A stretch of 64,000 bases of DNA from Polytrichum commune (taxonomy: Eukaryota > Streptophyta > Polytrichopsida > Polytrichales > Polytrichaceae): contig OX485808.1 in the NCBI GenBank assembly GCA_950295325.1, positions 22,090,527-22,154,526 on the forward strand, read 5' to 3'. This document shows, piece by piece, positions 20,280-58,830 of the stretch. Under the pieces are notes generated by a model. It made no database searches and had not been told where the DNA came from. It saw only the letters and a list, made by a program, of their open reading frames with translations. The translations under genes were made by a program, and so were the position numbers. Every line of letters starts with the position of its first letter. The stretch's first letter is position 1.

Positions 20280-20627
20280 CACACACAGTCGACTCATGCT
20301 CATACACTAGTATACTAGTAGGGCAGGGCAGAAGGCTGCTGACACACTTGTTGTGCTTTTTGTGGGCGTGAGTATATATATGTGAACCTTCCATTTGTTG
20401 ACTGCTTCTCATAATTAGCACCAAGAACAAGAAGCAACATTCTTTGCTTTTGCCAGGTCCTGATGACTGCAGCTAGGGGAGTCCCATTTCCCAAGAGCAG
20501 AGCAGAGCAGAGCAGAGGATCGTCTCTTCTGTCGCCTTGGGGAATTAATGGTGTAAAATCAGCAAGTTGGAAATCAATCCACCTCACAAGCACCAGCACT
20601 GTGAGGTCACGCTGCCTCCTCCTCTAA
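20280..20627. other. Low-copy stretch with (AGAGC)n
   Basis: No match elsewhere in the window. GC is higher than the surroundings. TATATATA occurs at about 20,372. An AGAGC pentamer run lies at 20,494-20,516. Overlapping minus-strand frames (72-97 codons) run through it without a known domain. Confidence 0.35.
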
Positions 20628-21435
20628 GGGCCACTTCACACACGAGACCGAGAGCCCGTGACCATTACACTTCAAGCACTCTCATTGGTGGAAAAGGCGG
20701 AGCCGGTCCAAGTTCGCTACTTCACACTACGCTTGAGGGACCAACGCAGTATGTGAATGCAAGATGGATGTAAAGTCTACATGGATTCCTACATGGCATC
20801 AAATGGATCATGTTTCATGCTCACTTGGATTATTTTCAAAAACCACTTCTCGGATGTAGGCCTAACACGTAACCGGGAGATCATGGTACTCTAAATGCTC
20901 ACAACCGTTGATTTATTCTATTTTATCATGTGTGAGGACCTGCGTGAATAGAAATTCATTGAAATAGCATTTGGTTGAGGGCACAGTCACGTACGACTTC
21001 ACACTACACTTGAGAGTCCGTGACCACACTACATGATTTTGGAGGTGTGTTGGGATGGCGTTTGGACACTTTCTTTCATGCTCTCACAATTTCATGGTCA
21101 CAACTCTTAGCTCGTGTGTGAAGTGACCCTCACACATGATAGAATTGAATAAACCAACGGTTGTGAGCGTTCAGAGTGCCATGGTCTCCCGGTTTTGTGT
21201 TAGACCTACCTCCAAGAGGTTGTTTTTAAAAATAATCTAAGTGACCATGAAAACATGATCCATTCGATGCCACGTACGAATCCATGTAGACTTTACATCC
21301 ATCTTGCATTCACGTACTCCGTTGGTCCCTCAAGCGTAGTGTGAAGCGAACTTGGACCGGCTCCGCCTTTTCAACCAATGAGAGTGCTTGAAGTGTAATG
21401 GTCATGGGTTCTCAGTCTCATGTGCGAAGTGGCCC
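20628..21435. mobile_element. Compound family A element (copy 2)
   Basis: 20,628-21,129 is a full forward copy (GGGCCACTTCACACACGAGA ... GGCTCTTAG/CTCGTGTGTG). From there to 21,435 a partial copy follows in reverse orientation, starting inside the family sequence at CCCTCACACATGATAGAAT and finishing at GTGCGAAGTGGCCC. TAA flanks the whole 808-bp unit on both sides (20,625-20,627 and 21,436-21,438), and both outer ends are the same family end. The unit therefore behaves as one insertion. Confidence 0.85.
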
Positions 21436-21528
21436 TAAGGCAAGGCATGTGCGCCTCTTGTCATCACACTTCCTTCTTAGCCCTTGAATTGCCAAATTAA
21501 AGGGTGCATTCCCAATGGAGTTCTGTGA

Positions 21529-21960
21529 TAAAGTAAAGCAGATGAAACCATGGGTTTAGTCCTAAGTCACGAGTTTATGAGAATCAACACAATTGTCACC
21601 CAAGTTTTTTTTTAAAGGTTAGATTACACTGCACAAAAAGTTGTGTTGGACTATTAAACACTGGTTTTCTTATCTTGTTCTACTCAAGTAATTGGGTCAA
21701 GCTAGCCTTGAATAGGTTGATATGGGATTTAGGACAACAAGTCCCATGTGCATACCCTATTTAGATCCTAAAACTCTCTCAAAGTTTGAGGGGGTGGAAA
21801 GTGGAGGTCTCAAAAGTTCCACCCAATTTTCAAAAGTAGGTTCCAACACATGACGAGCTATTATGCTTTTGATAGAAAGTTTTATCAAAGGGGAATCGAA
21901 CCCACAGGTTCATCCCTCTTTCATGGAGTTTATGGACAACTCTAATGAAATTGGAACTTT
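21529..21960 (+). repeat. Dispersed repeat T, copy 1
   Basis: About 430 bp matching 46,378-46,800: TCAAGCTAGCCTTG, TTTAGGACAACAAGTCCCAT, TAGAAAGTTTTATCAAAG, GAATCGAACCCACAGGTTC. No coding frame is conserved. The internal part or LTR of a retroelement is possible but unproven. Confidence 0.7.
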
Positions 21961-23029
21961 CACACCACCCTTGATGTCGAGGGCCATAACGTTACTCAAT
22001 CCTATGTTGATGCACCGTAGGGTCGGGAGTTTTCGGACATGATATCCCTTTTATTTTGGTCTCTATTTAAAAATGAACAATTTTCCACATGAGTAATTTG
22101 TTCACTTCATCACTTTAAACTGACATGTGGCTAAGCTTGGGCTCAACCCTGGCTCAATGTTGTCGGTAATACATACCCAAACCCCCCCGAAAAAAATTGG
22201 TATCAATATGGAATTTAGGCCCCATGTGGCCGTTGGCAGGTGATTAGCATGTCAACATGAAATGTTGCCATAAAGTGAACGGAAATTAAGTCATGGGTAG
22301 CAAGGATTGTTCATCCTTCATATTGAAAGAGAGCACCAATTGTAGGCTTAGTAATGTTACGGGGATTCTACCACTATCATCAACATATTTATGATTAATC
22401 ACTTGTATGTGGAAACTAACTCCACTATGAGTATACATGAAGAAGCATTTCTTTATTTCAACAAATTTTGAGAAGATCCAACGGTCTCCGAGCCAAAGAT
22501 CCCAATCTGTAGCAACTCTTCTATGTTTTTCTAAATTTGGATACTTGGCTAGATGAGGAAGTTAATAAAATAATAAAAAAACTGTGTATGTTTAGAATAC
22601 ACACATTTGTGAAAATTTGGCTCTTCGTATTTGGAGTTCATATGTCTCTTCTAGAGGTGGTCAAAGTTCATTGATGGAGTGTCTCACAATGAGCTTGACT
22701 GTCAACTTTGAGACATTATGGTTTAGGGTGTTGCCCACGCTACTAAAGATGGGCGATCCTTGCAATGGACAATACCTCATGCATGAAATTTTTCTTCCTC
22801 CTTCAAGTCTTAGTGGCCTTCTACGAGTTTCAAAAAAAAAACTTTTGGACATCATCCTCCTTCAAATGAAGAGCAAAATCTAACGAGACTTGCACCTACC
22901 TATTCTTGAAACATCAAAGAATATTCATGACAAGTGAGAGTCCTAGATGAAAACATGAAGTGGCTCCATGCCCTGCTTCTCTTTTTTAGAAAGATCCCTT
23001 GGTTCCCTCTCTAAAAAGAAAGCGTTGAT
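21961..23029. other. No recognised gene
   Basis: Overlapping frames on both strands near 22,617-22,883 have no identifiable domain. Confidence 0.35.
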
Positions 23030-23360
23030 CGGATAATTGTATATGAGTGTAAATCTTATAGTTAAGTACACCAACATATGACACAATGCGATTGGACTAT
23101 GTGCTCAAAGTATAGAAATTGTTCTAGGTTCAATAGCTAGCACATTTAGAAGGGCCCACACGATCGTTTAAAGAGAAATAATATCTTTGCTTAAACATCT
23201 TATTACTTTTGTATACGAACTGCGATTCTGAATCTTGAAATGATCTTCTTCGTGATGTGCAATTGCTAGTCATATGAGACAATTCCCAGTCAAATCCAAC
23301 GACCAAAATTGTTTGTGGAGTTGGAAGTGCCGCAATCCCACTGCAAGAGGGCCACATACT
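23030..23360 (+). repeat. Dispersed repeat V, copy 1
   Basis: Ordered blocks (GTTGATCGGATAATTG, GCGATTGGACTA, AATCTTGAAATGATC, GCAATTGCTAGTCATATGAG, CAATTCCCAGTCAAATCC) match 42,466-42,850 and 42,880-43,330. It includes the core labelled repeat S elsewhere, so S is likely the left part of V. Confidence 0.6.
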
Positions 23361-24894
23361 TAGGATGACTTAAGCTCATGCTCACACCGGGGCGGTGGCA
23401 TTAGGAGCTTTGTGGCTAGGAATTATAGTGTCATCAAACCTTGGTGGCTTCTACGGTGACACTAGGTACTTGTAGCTCAAGCAACCAAGGGATGTGGACA
23501 AACTTTTGTCATATCATTGTGGGGGCAATGAGGTGGAACAAAATATCTTAGCTTAATAAATCATGTGAGGGTTGTTAGTAATCACATGGCTTACTATTGT
23601 TATTGAGATATGCTTTGTCCGGTGATGGATAATGAAATTCGGCCACTTTTGGAATAGGCATATGAACTCCAAATATGAATATGAATATTCTCACATGTTC
23701 ATATTTAGATTGTATAGCATTACGTCAAAATTCATTTTTTATTTCATGTTGCTTATTCATACATGTTGTCATTCGAATCTCAAAAAAGAGGTTTTCACTA
23801 GCAATTTTGACTTCTTGAGAACTCCACCCTGACGACGGTTTGAAGGCACTAGGCCATGGCTCTTTAATGACCATGATACCCCACTTTTTAGATGAGACGA
23901 TAGGGAACTCCATGGACTATAGCTCAAAGTCTTTTGGAGGTTAGATGCCCTTAGTGTAAACCCAAATCATGGCCATGCCTACCTTCAAGAGTTGTTCCGA
24001 GAAGCCCCCCTACAATACCGGCCAACATCATATATACTTGCCATGTGGGATTCCATGTAGATCTTTCATACAGTGAAAATTTTATGAACTTTAATGGTCC
24101 AACATTGTCCTCATGTAAATCCAAAGCAAGGGCCCATGACACTCTCAACTAATGAGAAATCAAGGCTTTTCAAGAGCTTGGCCTTAGTGGCTTCCGTGTA
24201 AACAAGGCCACCAGACATGTATGAAAGCTCCAAGTCACAAGTGCATTTGGAAATGCGCCGGGAATGGGTGGGCGGCATGGCAATCTCTTGTTTTATTTGC
24301 AATGACTCATGACCACATTCGACAAACGGTGGAGATGATGATGTTAGGGTTGGTTCACACGGGGTCCCAAGTCCCAAGTCCCACTCATGTCAGCAAATCC
24401 CAATATGGACGCAAAGCCCATCTTTTGAGCCTCAAGAAACCATTAAATACATGGTTTGTAAGGACATTAAAGTCAGATCTCGGTTGCTTTATGTGGAAAA
24501 TATCTCAAGCCTTGTGTTGCGAGTTGGGTCTAGTGTTTGGCTCGACCAACTCTCTCAACACAAGTCCCAAGCCCCACCTCACAAATCTAGCCAAATCTCA
24601 AAGTTACCGAGGGATGTAGTTGCTACTGAGTGACAACAACGTCACGCAAATGCTAAATTCTATGCTCTTTCACCATAAATTTCAAGAAAGTTAGTGTGTG
24701 CCACCTGATTGTCAGTGAATAATGCCGACACTTTCATGCCAAGTACCGGTACTTTGAGTGAATAGTGCCAACTTGTTGAGACGAACAATGCCTCCTAATC
24801 CTTTTGGTGGCACTAATGGATAGTATGTCATAAAAAAAAAGTTTGGTATCACCTTCACTAATTCCCCCACCCTCATGGTCACTCATTGATATAC
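23361..24894. other. No recognised gene
   Basis: The longest open frame here (24,221-24,619, 132 codons) shows no domain, is crossed by open frames on the opposite strand, and is not accepted as coding. Confidence 0.35.
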
Positions 24895-24897
24895 TTA

Positions 24898-26023
24898 GGG
24901 CCGGTTTACACTATGGACCATGACGGCAGACCATGGAAGATGGCCTTTGTCAATGGTCCGAGTTCATGGTTAGACTTTATAAAAAATTAGTTTTGAGAGC
25001 CTTGGGCCCCTCACTAGGTGTAAACCGAATACGAACCAAGAAGAATGACCATGCACCAACAAGTGAAGGTGCTGATTCTTTTAATACATGCCCAAAAAGG
25101 GCAATTTTCAAAAAAAAAATTCAAGTTTGACCATTCTCTCGTCTTCTCTTGGGCGTTACTAGTCTTCACTTCTTGTTAAATGTGTTGAAGATGTGGCTTG
25201 CAAATATTCTCACAAAAATTTTTACAAAAAAATGAGCGATTTAATTTATACATGTTTAATGTAATTTACATGTGACATGCATGTACCTTGTGTTGTCACT
25301 CCACTAAATAGGATATTTAGTGTTTGATTATATTTAACGGTGTTACCACCCTACCTTGCTCAACACTAAAGTTCAATTCTTTGATAATTAGTGTTAGAAG
25401 ATTTCCCATTGCGGTTCTTTTAACCACCTTGATCTACAACCACTAAACGACTACAATTTTTTCTTTTTCGTTTTGCAACTGTAAATTTACAAATTTTTGG
25501 GGCATGTAATATACCGTTCGAAAGATATTTTTAATATCTTTCCAACGGTATATTACAAACCCCCATATTCCAAACATTGCAGTTGGTAGAGAAAAAAACA
25601 AAAAACAAACCTGCACTCAAATTCTAGAGTTTTAGATGTCCCACGTTGTTTGGTGAAACACGTGGGAGCCGGTTTAAGGTATAGGGCAAGGAAGTAATGG
25701 TATGTCTCATGGGCTATGATATGATTAAGGCACATAGAGGTTAGATTCATTAAATTTTTATTAAAACAACATTTTATTGCCATGGGCCCTTGCCTTTTCC
25801 TACAAGACCACCTCTCATGCCTCTCTCACCGCAAAACCCGTCGGACCATGTCAATGCATTTATTAAGACTTTAAAATTATATTTTTGGGACCTCGACCTA
25901 AATGGTCCCTCTGACATTTATTCCTTAGTGTAAACCGAAGTTGTCCCGGGACAACTCCAGCAGCCAATCATCTGCCTTGCAAATCCCCGGTCCAACTTCA
26001 TGGTCCATAGCGTAAACCGGCCC
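24898..26023. mobile_element. Harbinger-like element, family B
   Basis: A 1,126-bp element with ends GGGCCGGTTTACACTATGGA and its complement; one mismatch in about 26 bases. TTA flanks both sides (24,895-24,897 and 26,024-26,026). This end sequence and duplication fit the PIF/Harbinger superfamily. There is no transposase. A partial mini-CACTA sequence is nested inside. A shorter relative begins near 48.26 kb, sharing GGACCAAGAAG and GCCCAAAAAGGGCA. Confidence 0.85.
25390..25620. mobile_element. Nested half of a mini-CACTA foldback
   Basis: GCGGTTCTTTTAACCACCTT followed by GATCTACAACCACTAAACGA resembles the left arm of the element at 10,752-11,009. Then comes an inner hairpin (25,510-25,553, ATACCGTTCGAAAGATATTT mirrored) and a second ATATTACAAACCCCCATATT block. 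The proper CACTAGTAGAAA ends are missing, so this copy is rearranged. Confidence 0.55.
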
Positions 26024-26026
26024 TTA

Positions 26027-26671
26027 GTGCAATACAAAACCTGACACGACCTGGGAGTAGATAATTGGGTTGGACGAAAATGGAAAGCTAATTTCTGCTT
26101 CCCTTGGGGCCGTGCCAGAGCTTCCTTCCTTCCTTCCTTCCTTCCTTCCTTGGCCTGAGTCAATATTTCGTGTGAATTGGGTATTTGGGCAGATTTCGAA
26201 AGCCTCAACGGGAAGCGGACCTTATTAGTCACCACCACCCTGACAAACACCCATCTACATACTGACTGAATCAGTTATAAGCTGGCAGCACCCAGATATA
26301 TATATATATATATATATAGACACAATTAGTGACTCACTCACTTAAGGTGGGAATAATTAAACTAATGCCTGGGGAGGAGAGAAGGAGGCCAGGGCCCTAC
26401 ACTACACTACAAGCACAGTAAGAAGGAGGTAGTAGCTAGCTAGGGTGGGAGGGGGTAAGCCAATTCTGTTAATATAATGAGCGAGGTGGCCACAACGTGC
26501 GGCCTAGGGGAGCCAATAGCAGCCCCAACTCTAGCATAAACAAATCACCACTATTTAATGACACATATATAGCGGCTCTTCTACTACTAGCTAGCCCCCC
26601 CCCCCCTAATTAGTGACCCACCCCGGCCCCCTGCTTGCTGCTCATTAATTTGTACATACAGTAGGGGTTTA
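26027..26671. other. GC-richer low-copy stretch with microsatellites
   Basis: No match elsewhere in the window. It carries (CTTC)n at 26,121-26,151, (AT)n at 26,296-26,318, TAGCTAGCTAGG at about 26,434 and poly-C at 26,595-26,606. No gene could be called; it reads like non-repetitive intergenic or former gene-flanking DNA. Confidence 0.4.
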
Positions 26672-27608
26672 GGGCCACTTTACACACGAGCCAAGAGCCG
26701 TGACCATGACATTGTGAGGGCCCAAGAGAAAGTGTCCAAACGCCGTCCCAACATCCCTCCAAACTCATGTAGTGTGGTCACGGACCCTCAAGCGTAGTGT
26801 GCAGTCATGCGTGATTGGGTTCTCAAACAAACGCCATTTCAATGAATTCTTGTTCGAGCGGGCCCTCACACATGATAAAATAGAAGAAACCAATGGTTGT
26901 GAGCGTTTGGAGTGCCGTGGTCTCCCGGTTTTGTGGTAGGCCTACCTCCTTCAAGAGGCGGTTTTGGAGAACAGTCCAAGTGACCATGACACATGATCCA
27001 TTCGATGCCATGTAGGAATCCACGTAGACTTTGCATCCATCGTGCATTCATCGGTCCCTCAAGCGTAGTGTGAAGCGAACGTGGACCGGCTCCGCCTTTT
27101 CCACCAGCGAGAGTGTTGGAAGTGCAACGGTCACGGGCTCTGAGCGCCACTTCACACACGAGACTGAGAGCCCGTAACCACTACACTTCAAGCACTCTCA
27201 TTGGTGGCAAAGGTGGAGCCGGTCCAAATTCGCTTCACACTACGCTTGAGGGACCGATGAATGCACGATGGATGTAAAGTCTACATGGATTCCTACATGG
27301 CATCGAATGGATCACGTTTCATGATCACTTGGATTATTTTCAAAAACCACCTCTTGGAGGTAGGCCTAACACAAAATTGGGAGACTATGACACTCCGAAC
27401 GTGTCATGATGTGAGACCCCACACATGTAGAAATTCATTGAAATAGCATTTATTTGAGGGCCTAGTCACACATGACTTCACACTACACTTGAGAGCCCGT
27501 GACCACACTGCATGATTTTGGAAGTGTGTTGAGACGGCCTTTGGACACTTTCTTTTGGGCTCTCACAATTTTGTGGTCACGGCACTTGGCTCGTGTGTGA
27601 AGCGGCCC
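26672..27608. mobile_element. Compound family A element (copy 3)
   Basis: A reverse-oriented copy (26,672 to about 27,144, from GGGCCACTTTACACACGAGC) is joined to a forward copy (about 27,145-27,608). The join keeps GCCACTTCACACACGAGAC of the second copy, while the first has lost its last roughly 20 bases. The whole unit is flanked by TTA (26,669-26,671 and 27,609-27,611). The outer ends are the opposite family end from the 20.6-kb compound. Open frames with the family peptide DGCKVY(V/M)DSYMASNGS occur in both halves. Confidence 0.85.
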
Positions 27609-27611
27609 TTA

Positions 27612-43716: not shown

Positions 43717-44220
43717 GGGCCGCTTCACACACGAGCCAAGAGCCGTGACCATGACATTGTGAGGGCCCAAGAGAACATGTCCAAAGGCCGTCCCAAGGCA
43801 CCTCCAAAGTCATGTAGTGTGGTCACGGATCCTCAAGTGTGGTGTGAAGTCATACGTGATCAGGTCCTCAACCAAATGCTATTTCAATGAATTTCTGTTC
43901 ATGCGGGTCGTCATGAATGGTAGAATAGAATAAACCAACTGTTGTGAGCGTTCGGAGTGCCATGGTCTCCCACTTCTGTGTTAGACCTACCTCCTTCAAG
44001 AGGCGGTTTTCAAAAACAATCCAAGTGACCGTGACACATGATCCATTCGATGCCACGTAGGAATCCATGTAGACTTGACATCCATCTTGCGTTCACGTAC
44101 TGCGTCGGTCCCTCAAGCGTAGTGTGAAGCTTGAACTTGGACCGGCTCCGCCTTTTCCACCAACGAGGGTGCTTGAAGTGCAATGGTCACGGGCTCTCAG
44201 TCTTGTGTGTGAAGTGGCCC
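43717..44220 (-). mobile_element. Harbinger-like MITE, family A copy 7 (reverse)
   Basis: GGGCCGCTTCACACACGAGC to CTTGTGTGTGAAGTGGCCC, 504 bp, with TAA on both sides (43,714-43,716 and 44,221-44,223). Carries the family peptide on the minus strand (MDSYVASNGSC). Confidence 0.9.
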
Positions 44221-44269
44221 TAATATTGTACCAAGCAAAGTCACGTATGTTCTATAATGTCTGAACTAA

Positions 44270-44773
44270 GGGCCACTTCACACACGAGACCGAGAGCCCT
44301 TGACCATTCCACTTCAAGCACTCTCATTGGTGGAAAAGGCGGAGCCGGTCCAAGTTCGCTTCACACTGCGCTTGAGGGACCAATGGTGTATGTGAATGCA
44401 AGGTGGATGTAAAGTCTACCTGGATTCTTACATGGCATCGAAGGGATCATGTTTCATGGTCACTCGGACTATTTTCAAAAACCACCTCTTGGAAGTAGGC
44501 CTAACACAAAACTGGGAGACCATGGCACTTTGAATGCTCAAAACCATTGGTTTATTCTATTCTATCATATATGAAGATCCGCATGAATAGATGTTCATTG
44601 AGATAGCATTTGGTTGAGGGCCCGGTCACATATGACTTCACACTACACTTGGGGGTATGTGACCACACTACATGATTTTTGGAGGTGTGTTGGGACAGCC
44701 TTTGGACACTTACTTTCTTTCGGGCTCTCACAATTTCATGGTCACGGCTCTTGGCTCGTGTGTGAAGTGGCCG
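44270..44773 (+). mobile_element. Harbinger-like MITE, family A copy 8 (forward)
   Basis: GGGCCACTTCACACACGAGA to GGCTCGTGTGTGAAGTGGCC plus G, 504 bp, flanked by TAA (44,267-44,269 and 44,774-44,776). It lies 49 bp from copy 7 in opposite orientation. The separate duplications show two independent insertions. Confidence 0.9.
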
Positions 44774-53900: not shown

Positions 53901-54639
53901 GGTATTTCCATTGTCAAACTCTACCACCAAGAGTGCACCTCTGGTTTGTTGGTCAGCAACCCTCATCACTAGGAGGAGGGATTGACCTACTCAGTCATTG
54001 AATTATGTCGGGAAATACTTGTTGAGGTCATTTTCCTTTCCTTGGCCTAAAGACGGTGTAACCCGTTGCTGGTTGGTTTACATGAACATCCCTCCTACAA
54101 GAATGTGACTTTTGAAATACTCTAAATAATGTAAAGGTAAAAAATTCATATTGGTGTTGAACTTAGGTTTTTTTCTTGCATGGGTTGGCACTCAAGGATC
54201 TCAAGATTATATTCCCTTAAACTTCTAATGTCACAGTTAAGTGTATTTGGAGTATTCAGACTCTTGCATATCCACCATCATTCATGATATGAATTTTCAA
54301 TTACAAATAATTTGCAAAGTGTAAGTTGCGAATTTTGGTAAGTAATCTCAAAATTTAACCACTTTGATTTTGAGTGCTCATCCCATGCTTGTTTGGTTTA
54401 TGTACCTTGCTCTTAAACAATCCTTTCTATTTGGATGAGTCCTCAAGTCCCATGTGTGTAGTCTCAACTATCCAATTTTCTCAGATTTCTTTCATGCCTA
54501 TCTCAAGTGCTTATATTCCTTGAATTTCTTCGTAAGTGTCAAGTAACCAACTTCTTCAAATTTTCCTTGAATTGTTTTAAGTAATTAAGTCCTAATCTAA
54601 TTGATCTGGTTGATCAATTTTGCCTACAATGCTACCACA
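53901..54639. other. No recognised gene
   Basis: AT-rich spacer between the coding-like fragment and the LINE; no endonuclease domain of the LINE is visible here. Confidence 0.4.
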
Positions 54640-56951
54640 AAAAATTCATAACCCAATATCACCATCCTTCTCCACAAAAAGGATAACCCAAAAATAATAA
54701 CCAACTACAAACCTATAGCACTTGTAGAGATACCAACTACAAACTCTTCACACGCACTCTAACACCTCTACTAACTACCTTTGGTGAACAACACAAAATC
54801 CTTCATCACAATCAAGACTACTTTTGCCCGTGAGAAACACCGCCAGACAAATTCAAGGCATTACAGCCGCCTTGGAAGATGCCAAATCCACAAATAAAGA
54901 TATATACATCACATCCATAGATTTCAAAAATGCATTTGGCTTAATAATCACCCATGATTATTGGCCACAATGGAATACCTAAGATACCCGCTAGACGTGA
55001 TAGAACTAGTAGGTAACGTATAATCCGAATCATCCACCTCCTTCCATAGAGCACACTTCACCACCACACCCCCAATAGAAATTAGCAGAGGCATTATTCA
55101 AGGAGACACCCTTAGCCCAAAATTTTCATCATTCATCATTTTCTTTGAACCTGTTGTTAGGTGGCTAGAATAAGACAAAAGGGGTTATAAATTCAACGCA
55201 TCACTGAATACCATGACCACATATGCCTACACCAATGACCTCGCAATACTAATAGAGGACATCACATCCATACAACCCCAACTCAACAAGCTTAGACTAT
55301 ACCTAGACTGGGCTCATATGGACCTCGGCATCTCTAAATGTGCAATCATGGGTTGCCCTAACAATTTTAAACTCCAACCCCTCACATTCACCACAAGCAT
55401 CAAAGCTCAAAACATCAACTACAAGAACCAACAACTCCCTATCTTATCTCAAACCTAACAATACACCTACCTAGGAATACGACTAGTCCCATCACTTAAA
55501 TGGACAATCCAAAAAGAAACCATCCAAGCAAAAATTAAAATCCTCAACACCTCAATCTGCCTTGGCATAGAATATGCATTCTATGCCACCCCCTTATCAA
55601 TCCCGAACATTTGCAAAATGGACATAATGGGCTAAATGACCTCATGCAATTGGGCCACATCTACCAAGGACCTGTCAAATTTATAACCTCCAAATAGTGA
55701 ACATCTCCCCCTTCTTGAATACCAAACCTACACTAGGTCCCCCACATCTAGAGCATTATTCATCCTCAAAAAACAGTTCCATATCCATATATACATATAT
55801 ATTCAATGGAAACAACCTTCATACTCAAGAACTCACTTCTCCAAGAAGAATGATACAAAAGCCCTTTCTACCCCACCCTCACCCACTCACAAAAATTTAA
55901 CACATAAACAATTCATCAACAAACTAGCCACACTTAATACCACAACCCTCCCTCAAATACATGATAACATGTGCACCCGCATCCTAAACTTCCAAGAATT
56001 TCAGGCAAACTACACTAAATCCAAAATAATAAAAAGCGCTAACTTTCTTCCCATCACAAAACTATAACAAAATTAGAGACATAAATCCATAACTACAAAA
56101 CTCCTCATCACACAAAAAACCTATAATCTAGAGATAGAAGGTTTGTTTGCCCAAGTCTCACCATACCACAACTTAGACTACAAACCCAAGAATGCAATCC
56201 TAACAAAGATATCATAGCAAGCGCACACACCATCCAAATCCACCCACCACTCACCGAAATACACAACCACGAAGAAAACTACCAAACATACATAACACTA
56301 GACAAACTCTATTGGCTATGGGAAAAATACCCCATCAACAGAAACAACCCCTCCCTCAACCTCAACCCACCTCCACAAGACGTCGCAACATAAATCCTAC
56401 TACTAATCAACATATATATTAACTCACTACCACAAAACCACCAACCTCCATTTCCCCCCTACATAATCACCAGGCCCTACCTCAAACAATCCCCGAAAAC
56501 TCAATCAACACCTTCAACCTAACACACTATTACTCCTCAAGCCCTCTAACATGTCCCATTGCATTCACACAATATCATCCCCCACATGAGAGAGACAAAA
56601 TCTTCAACTCCCTAGGCCATGCCTTCAATTCACAATGGTGTGGCCACATTACCGACATTGACCTTATCCCTAAAGACATCAATTGGGCCAAAATCACACA
56701 ACAAACTAACTCAAACAACATCACCATTATTGTCATCACACATGATGATTAGACCAACAAAAAAATTGATCCTCTCCAACAACCCGACATAATCCCCAAA
56801 ATAACACCCCCCACCACCACCACCACCATACTACACATGTGGATCCTTTACACCTCCAAGTAATGAAAGGAATGGTAACATTGCAGAGTCGCGAGTATAT
56901 AATGTCCCACTCCAAATTCACATAGCAACTAAATATCCATGATACTTGAAT

Positions 56952-57240
56952 ATTCTCCATGCCAAACTTTACGCACTACTCTTGGCAGTAGAACACACTA
57001 GATCCCTAAACATGGACACATTTATCTTCATTAACAACCTCAATAGCATATACCTCCTACTCAACCGCATCAAACATCCTTCCTCATAATAGAACCACCC
57101 AAATAAACTACGTATCACACACATCATTGCATCCATTAACTCATCCAAACATAATGTCGCCATCCAAAAAGTTAGAGCATGCACAAACATAGCATGCAAT
57201 GACGAAGTAGATAAACTAGCCAAATAAGGAGCCCAAGATC
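56952..57240 (+). pseudogene. RNase H domain of the LINE
   Basis: HAKLYALLLAVEHTRS carries the helix with the catalytic Glu. TFIFINNLNSIYLL has Asn-Asn where the family has Asp-Asn. QKVRACTNIACNDEVDKLAK keeps the final Asp-containing motif but has Cys where His is usual. Two stops lie between. The catalytic set is incomplete, so the domain would be inactive even without stops. Confidence 0.75.
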
Positions 57241-57598
57241 CAAAAATACTAGTAACTCCCTTTCACCTGATAGGACACCAAACATCATATTGGCCCTCAA
57301 TACCTCCTACATCCACTCAACACGATGGCTATGTACACAACCTTAAGACATACATGCATAAAGAATACAAAATGCACTCACCGCCCTAGCAACAAATACC
57401 ATCCCATATGTCAACAAATGGCTCTCAAACGAAGATCTCCACCCAATAGGATCCAACATCTTATGGGATGCCAAATGGATTTCCAGCGCACAAATTCCAA
57501 TATGGCCAGAACATGGGCAGCTATAAGAAAAAGAAGTATGTATTGAAACACGACATTTCCCCATGATGCAGCCTTTGTAACCTTAGAGTACATGACAC

Positions 57599-58075
57599 AT
57601 GCCTCCACCTACTCTCTTGTTGCACAAATCAACATATAAATTAGCTTTGCACCAACCACCACAACAGAGGAGCCATGCATTGGCTAACACCCTAAGGGCA
57701 CACCCCAATACAGGATGCTTCACATTAATAAACGTCAGTAACCACAATGACCGTACACCAGATAATACTATCCCATCATGGCTACTACCTTGCACATGTT
57801 ACGTACCAAAATGTAAATGCCCATCCCACCTATGCTCGGACATCCTATGCCTAACAAGCGTCCCACCAAATGCGAAAACCTTGTTCACTCCCATACCCAA
57901 CACCAAAGTACAAATCTTGGAATTCACATACTGCAATGATAGATTCCATGAAGCCGCCACCACCCATAAACTAGATAAATACCCAATCATCTTTGCCGGC
58001 ATAAGAAGCCTCTATTCATACACCAACTATCAAACACCTAATAGAACTCAAAATACCCAGGTACAAAATCAATAA
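57599..58075 (+). pseudogene. C-terminal region of the LINE (158-codon open frame)
   Basis: The longest uninterrupted frame in the window. It contains CTCYVPKCKCPSHLCSDILC, a clustered Cys/His pattern that could bind zinc, then LEFTYCNDRFHEAATTHKLD and YPIIFAGIRSLYSY. It lies directly after RNase H and is duplicated in antisense at 1-480, so it belongs to the element and is not a host gene. Confidence 0.65.
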
Positions 58076-58160
58076 GTTAATGGAAAACATTTCACAAATA
58101 GCCATCAAATACCTAACACATATCATACTCAACAAAAGAAAACTGGAAAAGAAACAAGCT

Positions 58161-58830
58161 CCGGTACTACTAGATTAAAACACACTAAGCCAATAGCCCT
58201 AGGAGTAACACAACAATCTACTTATTACCAACAGGCATGGAGCCACTCCCACCCCCATATCCACGCAGACATGGGTTGGGAGTAGGTGAACAGACATCAC
58301 CGCATGTTGGTGTAATAAAACTTGACGTTCCAGTTTATGTTGTTTCTTACTAAAAACTTTGCATGTGAACTAAGTTAACTCCTTGCGAAGAAGCACTTGT
58401 AATATGCATGGATGTGGTCCCCAACTACTTACAAAACATCAACAACACCAAGTGCATATCTTTGACCACGTTAGTCGAATAAGAACCCTTGTTCCTTTCA
58501 ATCGCCTCATCCAAGGCTCAAGAATGAACGTGGTTGTTTTGTACATGCTAGCGAGAGGCTCCACTTGTGTGCCTAAAATGGCATGGTCACATGTGATTTG
58601 CACAAAACCAACATATGACCAACTCCACTGTGCTTAAAAACTCAATCGACAGTTTAACTAGTAAGCCGTATAAGACAAGTGACCACATAAGAGACACACA
58701 TACCTTATCACTTCCCTAACTTCAACACAAACCCTCCATTAATATATTCTAATACACGAGATGTGTGCCTTGAATAAATACAGCTTGAATAGCATCATGT
58801 TCTTTTTTAGACCAGGCGACCTCCAGTTCC
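58161..58830. other. No recognised gene
   Basis: May include the LINE 3' untranslated region; no poly-A tail is seen. Confidence 0.35.

Follow-up and report, generated by a model that had tools for sequence, protein, structure and literature searches.

The window analysed here is a stretch of 64,000 nucleotides from Polytrichum commune (assembly GCA_950295325.1, contig OX485808.1, positions 22,090,527 to 22,154,526 of the forward strand), and the subject is a pair of compound elements within it, at 20628-21435 (unit 1) and 26672-27608 (unit 2). Each consists of two copies of a non-coding transposable element, family A, joined in opposite orientations. Both units are probably nested insertions, in which one family A copy entered another and a piece of the outer copy was then lost. 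They belong to a known kind of event and are a tidy example of it. A preliminary description of this DNA had favored template switching or fold-back recombination and had dismissed chance nested insertion; that dismissal is not supported, because the join in unit 2 lies on a preferred target of the family and intact nests with the same join stand elsewhere in the genome.

Family A is a Tourist/PIF-like miniature inverted-repeat transposable element (MITE) of about 500 bp. Its consensus, built from 93 single copies, is about 499 bp long, and both ends carry terminal inverted repeats (TIRs) of GGGCCACTTCACACACGAG type. Mean divergence of the 93 singles from the consensus is 5.1%, in a sample that is skewed to close copies and consists mostly of best hits. 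Three hallmarks of PIF/Harbinger elements are present, namely TIRs, a 3-bp TTA/TAA duplication and an extended palindromic target preference, which for family A is C-TWA-G with a preference for A/T in the flanks (the training set was partly biased, and the ranking was redone without the chosen loci). Among 64 singles with intact ends, all from loci not picked through any junction query, 43 have matched target-site duplications (TSDs) of the form TNA, where N is any base (23 TAA, 14 TTA, 4 TGA and 2 TCA), and 21 are unmatched by the same test. The family is high-copy, with 5,421 and 5,816 first-look candidates as rough counts, in an assembly of 408 Mb and 64 contigs, seven of which measure 42 to 78 Mb. 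PIF/Harbinger transposases are expected to carry the domain DDE_Tnp_4, and this domain is abundant here (150 of 990 candidates were scored, all above the cut-off). For an autonomous partner five transposase loci were read, none with a family A TIR within 1.5 kb.

Base-by-base reading bears out the architecture first described, with head-on copies, one duplication around each unit and none at the inner joins. Unit 1 is bounded on the + strand by TAA on the left (20625-20627) and TAA on the right (21436-21438). Its left part, a full family A copy on the + strand (20628-21129) that is 6.2% from consensus, would be the inner, later insertion in the order proposed below. The join holds a single TCA (21130-21132), corresponding to one side of the insertion TSD in the outer copy at consensus position 303-305; of that outer copy (21130-21435, - strand) the start-end part is left and about 194 bp of the stop-end part is missing. 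Unit 2 lies between TTA (26669-26671) and TTA (27609-27611), again on the + strand. Here the outer copy is on the left (26672-27143, - strand), running from its stop end to the target site and lacking about 21 bp of the start end. A single TGA at the join (27141-27143) falls on a target hotspot at consensus position 22-24, and the inner copy (27144-27608, + strand) extends from its start end, which reads GCGCC for GGGCC, to its stop end. The outer ends are start and start in unit 1, stop and stop in unit 2, as had been stated, and the inner junctions, earlier placed at about 21,128 and 27,144, were right within a few bases (21129/21130 and 27143/27144). Inverted-repeat homology within the units is far above chance. 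The matched outer TSDs are by themselves weak evidence, since, at the TSD frequencies of the family, a chance match has a probability of 0.40 for two independent ends and of 0.16 for both units.

The inner joins each retain one TNA, as one side of an insertion would leave. TNA stands directly at the join in four of six tip-less inverted A-A compounds, a chance outcome of P 7e-4 given that TNA occupies 8.7% of positions. The six, all from DNA similarity searches, are the two window units and those at C5:19.05, C6:20.33, C2:33.24 and C2:34.53 Mb. If C2:33.24 Mb is dropped, its TAA perhaps coming from an adjacent pair, the count is three of five (P 6e-3); locus L134 was left out because its search pattern is built around TNA. 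Two independent adjacent insertions, with the TSDs between them decayed or deleted, are a most unlikely source of the window units. Such neighbors do occur, and C2:33.24 Mb looks like a pair of this kind with an internal deletion, but in each window unit the join cuts one partner at an internal TNA, and the other begins at or very near its own terminal base. Family A-type ends abutting over one common TNA (GGCCC-TNA-GGGCC) are found at 66 sites genome-wide with up to 1 mismatch, and the family's own duplication is therefore reused as a target too.

The joins were also scored as targets, with a palindromised weight matrix made from 43 TSD sites that excluded loci found by junction queries; it replaced a first model trained on loci partly chosen by junction patterns. 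The unit-2 join, consensus position 22 (CGAGAC-TGA-GAGCCC), ranks first of 484 sites at 7.14, the next scoring 2.93, and it kept this place after the rebuild. Its score lies near the 75th percentile for real targets and is reached by 0.08% of window positions. Two other loci, L100 (C2:2.84 Mb) and L102 (C6:9.90 Mb), have joins at TCA/TGA within the TIR (ACT-TCA-CAC), which suggest a second self-target nearer the tip.

Use of the hotspot as a nesting site is seen directly elsewhere. At C4:19.35 and C6:37.71 Mb stand intact A-in-A nests with the unit-2 join and both duplication pairs whole (inner TCA/TCA or TGA/TGA, outer TTA/TTA), and the last ~21 bases of the outer copy are kept. An inner 3-bp duplication, which the preliminary description had treated as a result that would speak against its own reading, is absent in the window, where the units keep one side only; in the two intact nests both sides survive, as is expected of nested multimers. 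A pattern for the remnant side of the hotspot matches 27 places genome-wide, against none for a pattern of equal length at a TTA in the same element, position 38. Junction reading of all 27 showed that several families use the hotspot: the insert is family A, its relative B, or an element that ends in GTGTAAAGCGGCCC or GTGTAAACCGGCCC. Elements with ends of the GGGCCGGTTTACAC kind nest there (L145/L154 and L143/L155; L146 by its remnant side), and another TIR element with GGGCCGGTTTACAC ends and TTA/TTA flanks lies between the two window units, at 24898-26028.

Hotspot nests read with both partners number 23, found via patterns and similarity, and their division into 15 that keep the outer tip wholly or partly and 8 that have lost it is no unbiased rate. 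The tip is kept at C4:19.35, C6:37.71, C1:44.05 (part of the tip), C2:28.56, C2:43.03, C1:38.36, C1:60.79, C6:6.54, C6:38.16, C1:55.46, C3:6.90, C5:32.96, C7:13.13, C4:29.53 and C1:4.61 Mb. Four of the eight tip-less cases have matched outer TSDs: window unit 2 (TTA), C5:19.05 Mb (TTA), and two that pair B with A, at C3:41.87 Mb (TAA) and C1:18.63 Mb (TTA plus one extra base). The remnant-side pattern can find tip-keeping nests only. The left-side pattern gave 189 matches, 100 of them listed; 20 of those listed were read as loci together with 16 more picked by eye, and many of these proved to be single copies or neighbors without an outer A copy. Dropped before the count were C1:68.03 Mb (the outer copy a fragment only), C6:20.33 Mb (the join off the hotspot) and the remnant-side matches that were covered across the junction but not over the outer body (L116, L140-L142, L144 and L146-L152).

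The origin of the two halves was traced through rare variants, defined as those present in at most 2 of the 93 singles. The arms of unit 1 carry seven and eight, with none in common; they therefore come from different parents, neither copied from the other, and fold-back copying was rejected for this unit. None are common to both arms in the inverted nests at C4:19.35 and C6:37.71 Mb or in the tandem nest at C2:28.56 Mb. The arms at C2:33.24 and C2:34.53 Mb have one in common each, those at C5:19.05 Mb two, those at C6:20.33 Mb four and those of unit 2 five. Among 4,278 background pairs of singles, at least five are in common in one pair and at least four in two. Stricter controls were added because the arms of unit 2 and C6:20.33 Mb are rich in rare variants: in 136 pairs whose singles each carry 15 or more, the maximum was four (one pair), and 144 arm pairs across compounds reached three (one pair), with two in common in 5 pairs, one in 29 and none in 109.

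Copying of one element in inverted form, whether by template switching in gap repair or by fold-back recombination, is very improbable. The sharing within unit 2, which includes a tract private to it, would suit such copying, as would the arms at C6:20.33 Mb, whose join is not at TNA; but the arms of unit 1 share nothing, the columns beside the tract in unit 2 show unshared differences only, and the unit-2 join sits on a hotspot where intact nests with the same join exist. The process does recur, as the preliminary description had proposed, but the mechanisms that it named are not supported, least of all by unit 1. The sharing in unit 2 is best read, from the letters, as arm-to-arm gene conversion, because a shared tract lies between unshared flanks, whereas copying of a whole arm would leave sharing throughout. 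The tract consists of a 9-bp deletion flanked on each side by one substitution and lies, in window coordinates converted from genome positions, at 27034-27058 in the left arm (- strand) and 27250-27274 in the right (+ strand). All three changes together occur only in these two arms genome-wide, at 0 or 1 mismatch, and the deletion without the two substitutions in one other place. Of 41 positions compared in columns 101-150, the arms disagree at 1, with 23 column changes from consensus summed over both; over columns 51-100 and 151-250 each difference is private to one arm. C6:20.33 Mb makes a weaker case, its exact variant being unique to its arms but nine places lying one mismatch off.

Identical joins at separate loci need care. 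A non-A element, 98% identical between C4:29.53 and C1:4.61 Mb over 248 bp (its end and the remnant), occupies the same base in the A copy of each locus, and these two A copies are 85% alike and have no rare variants in common; judged from sequence, this exact reuse of a site is recurrent insertion and not the spread of one composite. Kinship of window unit 2 with the compound at C5:19.05 Mb, which has the same join, was considered and is not supported, the four cross pairings of their arms sharing 1, 1, 0 and 0 rare variants. The flanks of eight compounds (1.3 kb per side) show no homology at E 1e-5 but for one 34-bp match between C2:33 and C5:19, and the compared compounds are therefore not segmental duplicates. 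A join between an A-type end and one particular outside sequence (GGCCC-TAA-ACCATGATA) recurs in identical form at 13 places, for instance C3:39170303, C5:23525206 and C7:39215084; it could reflect another repeat that contains a hotspot, or the spread of a composite as a unit. That misassembly of a high-copy repeat produced the window joins is very hard to credit. The copy number of family A would make such errors conceivable, but the assembly holds 408 Mb in just 64 contigs, the TSD rule holds at the outer ends, and like joins recur elsewhere.

The nesting and loss reading can be set out in steps. First, a family A copy would enter an older one in inverted orientation at a TNA target, as it has done elsewhere in the family; the target would be the hotspot (CTC-TNA-GTC, ~21 bp inside the start end) in unit 2 and a weak TGA/TCA site near the middle in unit 1. 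The window units would thus have passed through the state that the intact nests still display. Second, the piece of the outer copy past the insert would be lost, exactly to the TIR boundary, along with one copy of the inner TSD; such a loss would give what is now seen: a single pair of TSDs around two like outer ends, without a duplication inside. In unit 2 only, arm-to-arm conversion of at least one short tract would have followed.

Two routes for the loss fit the letters equally, and one genome does not separate them. Transposase may have paired the outermost good ends, stop ends in unit 2 and start ends in unit 1, and moved the composite, with one new TSD as the result. Alternatively, the directly repeated inner and outer TIRs may have recombined in place by slippage or single-strand annealing, in which case no unit would have moved; the two accounts part at the loss step only. 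In place, the repeats to be joined would lie 24 bp apart in unit 2, they match at 17/21 and 19/21 bases in the two intact A-in-A nests, and the predicted product is the observed structure with the outer TSD pair retained; but in unit 1 the repeats would lie ~197 bp apart, which is less easy, and no positive evidence favors in-place loss specifically. Because the unit-1 deletion would have to span that distance, we lean slightly to transposition of the composite, at even odds, and regard in-place loss as a serious contender of somewhat less than even probability. A wider proposal is offered tentatively, as one that may well be wrong: the family's best target, ~21 bp inside its own start end, may repeatedly convert single elements to longer palindromic same-ended composites that transposase then moves as new units, with conversion keeping parts of the palindrome matched.

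Several observations weigh against nesting followed by loss. The unit-1 join, consensus position 303 (CATGTG-TGA-GGACCC), ranks 16 of 484 with a score of 0.99 (it had ranked 10 before the model was rebuilt), which falls just short of the 5th percentile for real targets, 1.09, and is equalled by 4% of window positions; the site is a permitted but poor target. No intact nest was recognised there among 36 pattern matches, 10 of them, L100 and L102 included, read as loci and 26 judged on printed letters. Given this null and the poor rank, nesting in unit 1 rests on its TCA and on analogy. TNA is lacking at the join in two of the six inverted compounds (C6:20.33 and C2:34.53 Mb), and among the eight tip-less nests two have unmatched outer TSDs (C2:9.89 and C7:35.99 Mb) and two a truncated end (C1:71.49 and C6:9.81 Mb). 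In unit 2, three of the five rare variants shared by the arms lie outside the private tract, at columns 315, 344 and 362; they may stem from another exchange or from partial common descent of the two arms, and they would also suit template switching.

The remaining adverse point concerns mobility. The preliminary description had supposed that the units would move with two identical ends, and had named several copies of the junctions with different flanks as what would show movement as a unit. Each unit does look like one insertion with like-type ends, but no second copy of either (same join, same partners) and no same-junction copy with different flanks was found among the best 40 of several thousand candidates scored per DNA similarity search, and there is therefore no support for unit mobility. 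This result is also in favor of in-place loss. The like joins that did turn up were tip-keeping nests, had other breakpoints, or showed no excess of rare variants in common with the window unit.

Related structures are known from other systems. MITE multimers formed by insertion into the same family are described as frequent, with 11% of rice MITEs in multimers, and MITEs are said to transpose alongside another MITE (PMC10664404 and PMC3695323, citing Jiang and Wessler 2001). The rice and maize multimers, as cited there, resemble the present nests in having a MITE within a member of its own family and in forming multi-element units; a possible difference is that in family A the hotspot has been placed ~21 bp from the tip of the element itself and linked to the forms that lack a tip and have like ends. 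For PIF/Harbinger, a TTA/TAA duplication (PMC2213677) and a 9-bp target preference (PMC2836001) are given. Family A resembles the Tourist-like MITEs of this group, as far as they are covered there, in its short TIR form, its TTA/TAA TSD and a preference that extends beyond 3 bp, but differs in that about 14% of its matched TSDs (6/43) are TGA or TCA. The hotspot also resembles the maize PIF target motif, CWCTTAGWG. In carrot, a DcSto element can have an additional terminal fragment from a second copy attached to one end, which PMC3695323 interprets as nested insertion. The window units share that feature, whereas DcSto, as presented there, is of Stowaway type with TA duplications and was found as single PCR products. 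Foldback elements have long inverted arms and one outer duplication, as the window units do; each window unit, however, was found once, and a multi-copy element with one fixed join was not found among the candidates scored. Tandem MITE insertions are reported from cod (PMC12368964). A search of part of the literature brought up no paper whose title or abstract treats precisely this case.

Other features of the window and the family may be mentioned. At 43717-44772 two full family A copies lie in opposite orientation with 49 bp between them; they look like separate insertions and form no compound. Locus L104 (C1:5.21 Mb) has an A copy and then four further direct copies of the stop end, ~130-160 bp each, in a small end array. 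The 4-kb stretch 54500-58500 shows strong strand bias, with GC skew to -0.63, AT skew to +0.39 and an A/C-rich + strand; a 158-amino-acid open reading frame within it (57599-58075) matches nothing in Pfam at E 0.01.

For family A, a simple predictive rule takes the place of an unusual repair origin: an element whose end carries its own target motif will nest in itself at one base pair, and such a self-nest can decay to same-ended palindromic units. In the genome of P. commune, intact nests and nests without a tip form a natural series. Foldback-like structures of other genomes can be read by this rule, but with caution, since the same join at several loci is not always the mark of one spreading element.

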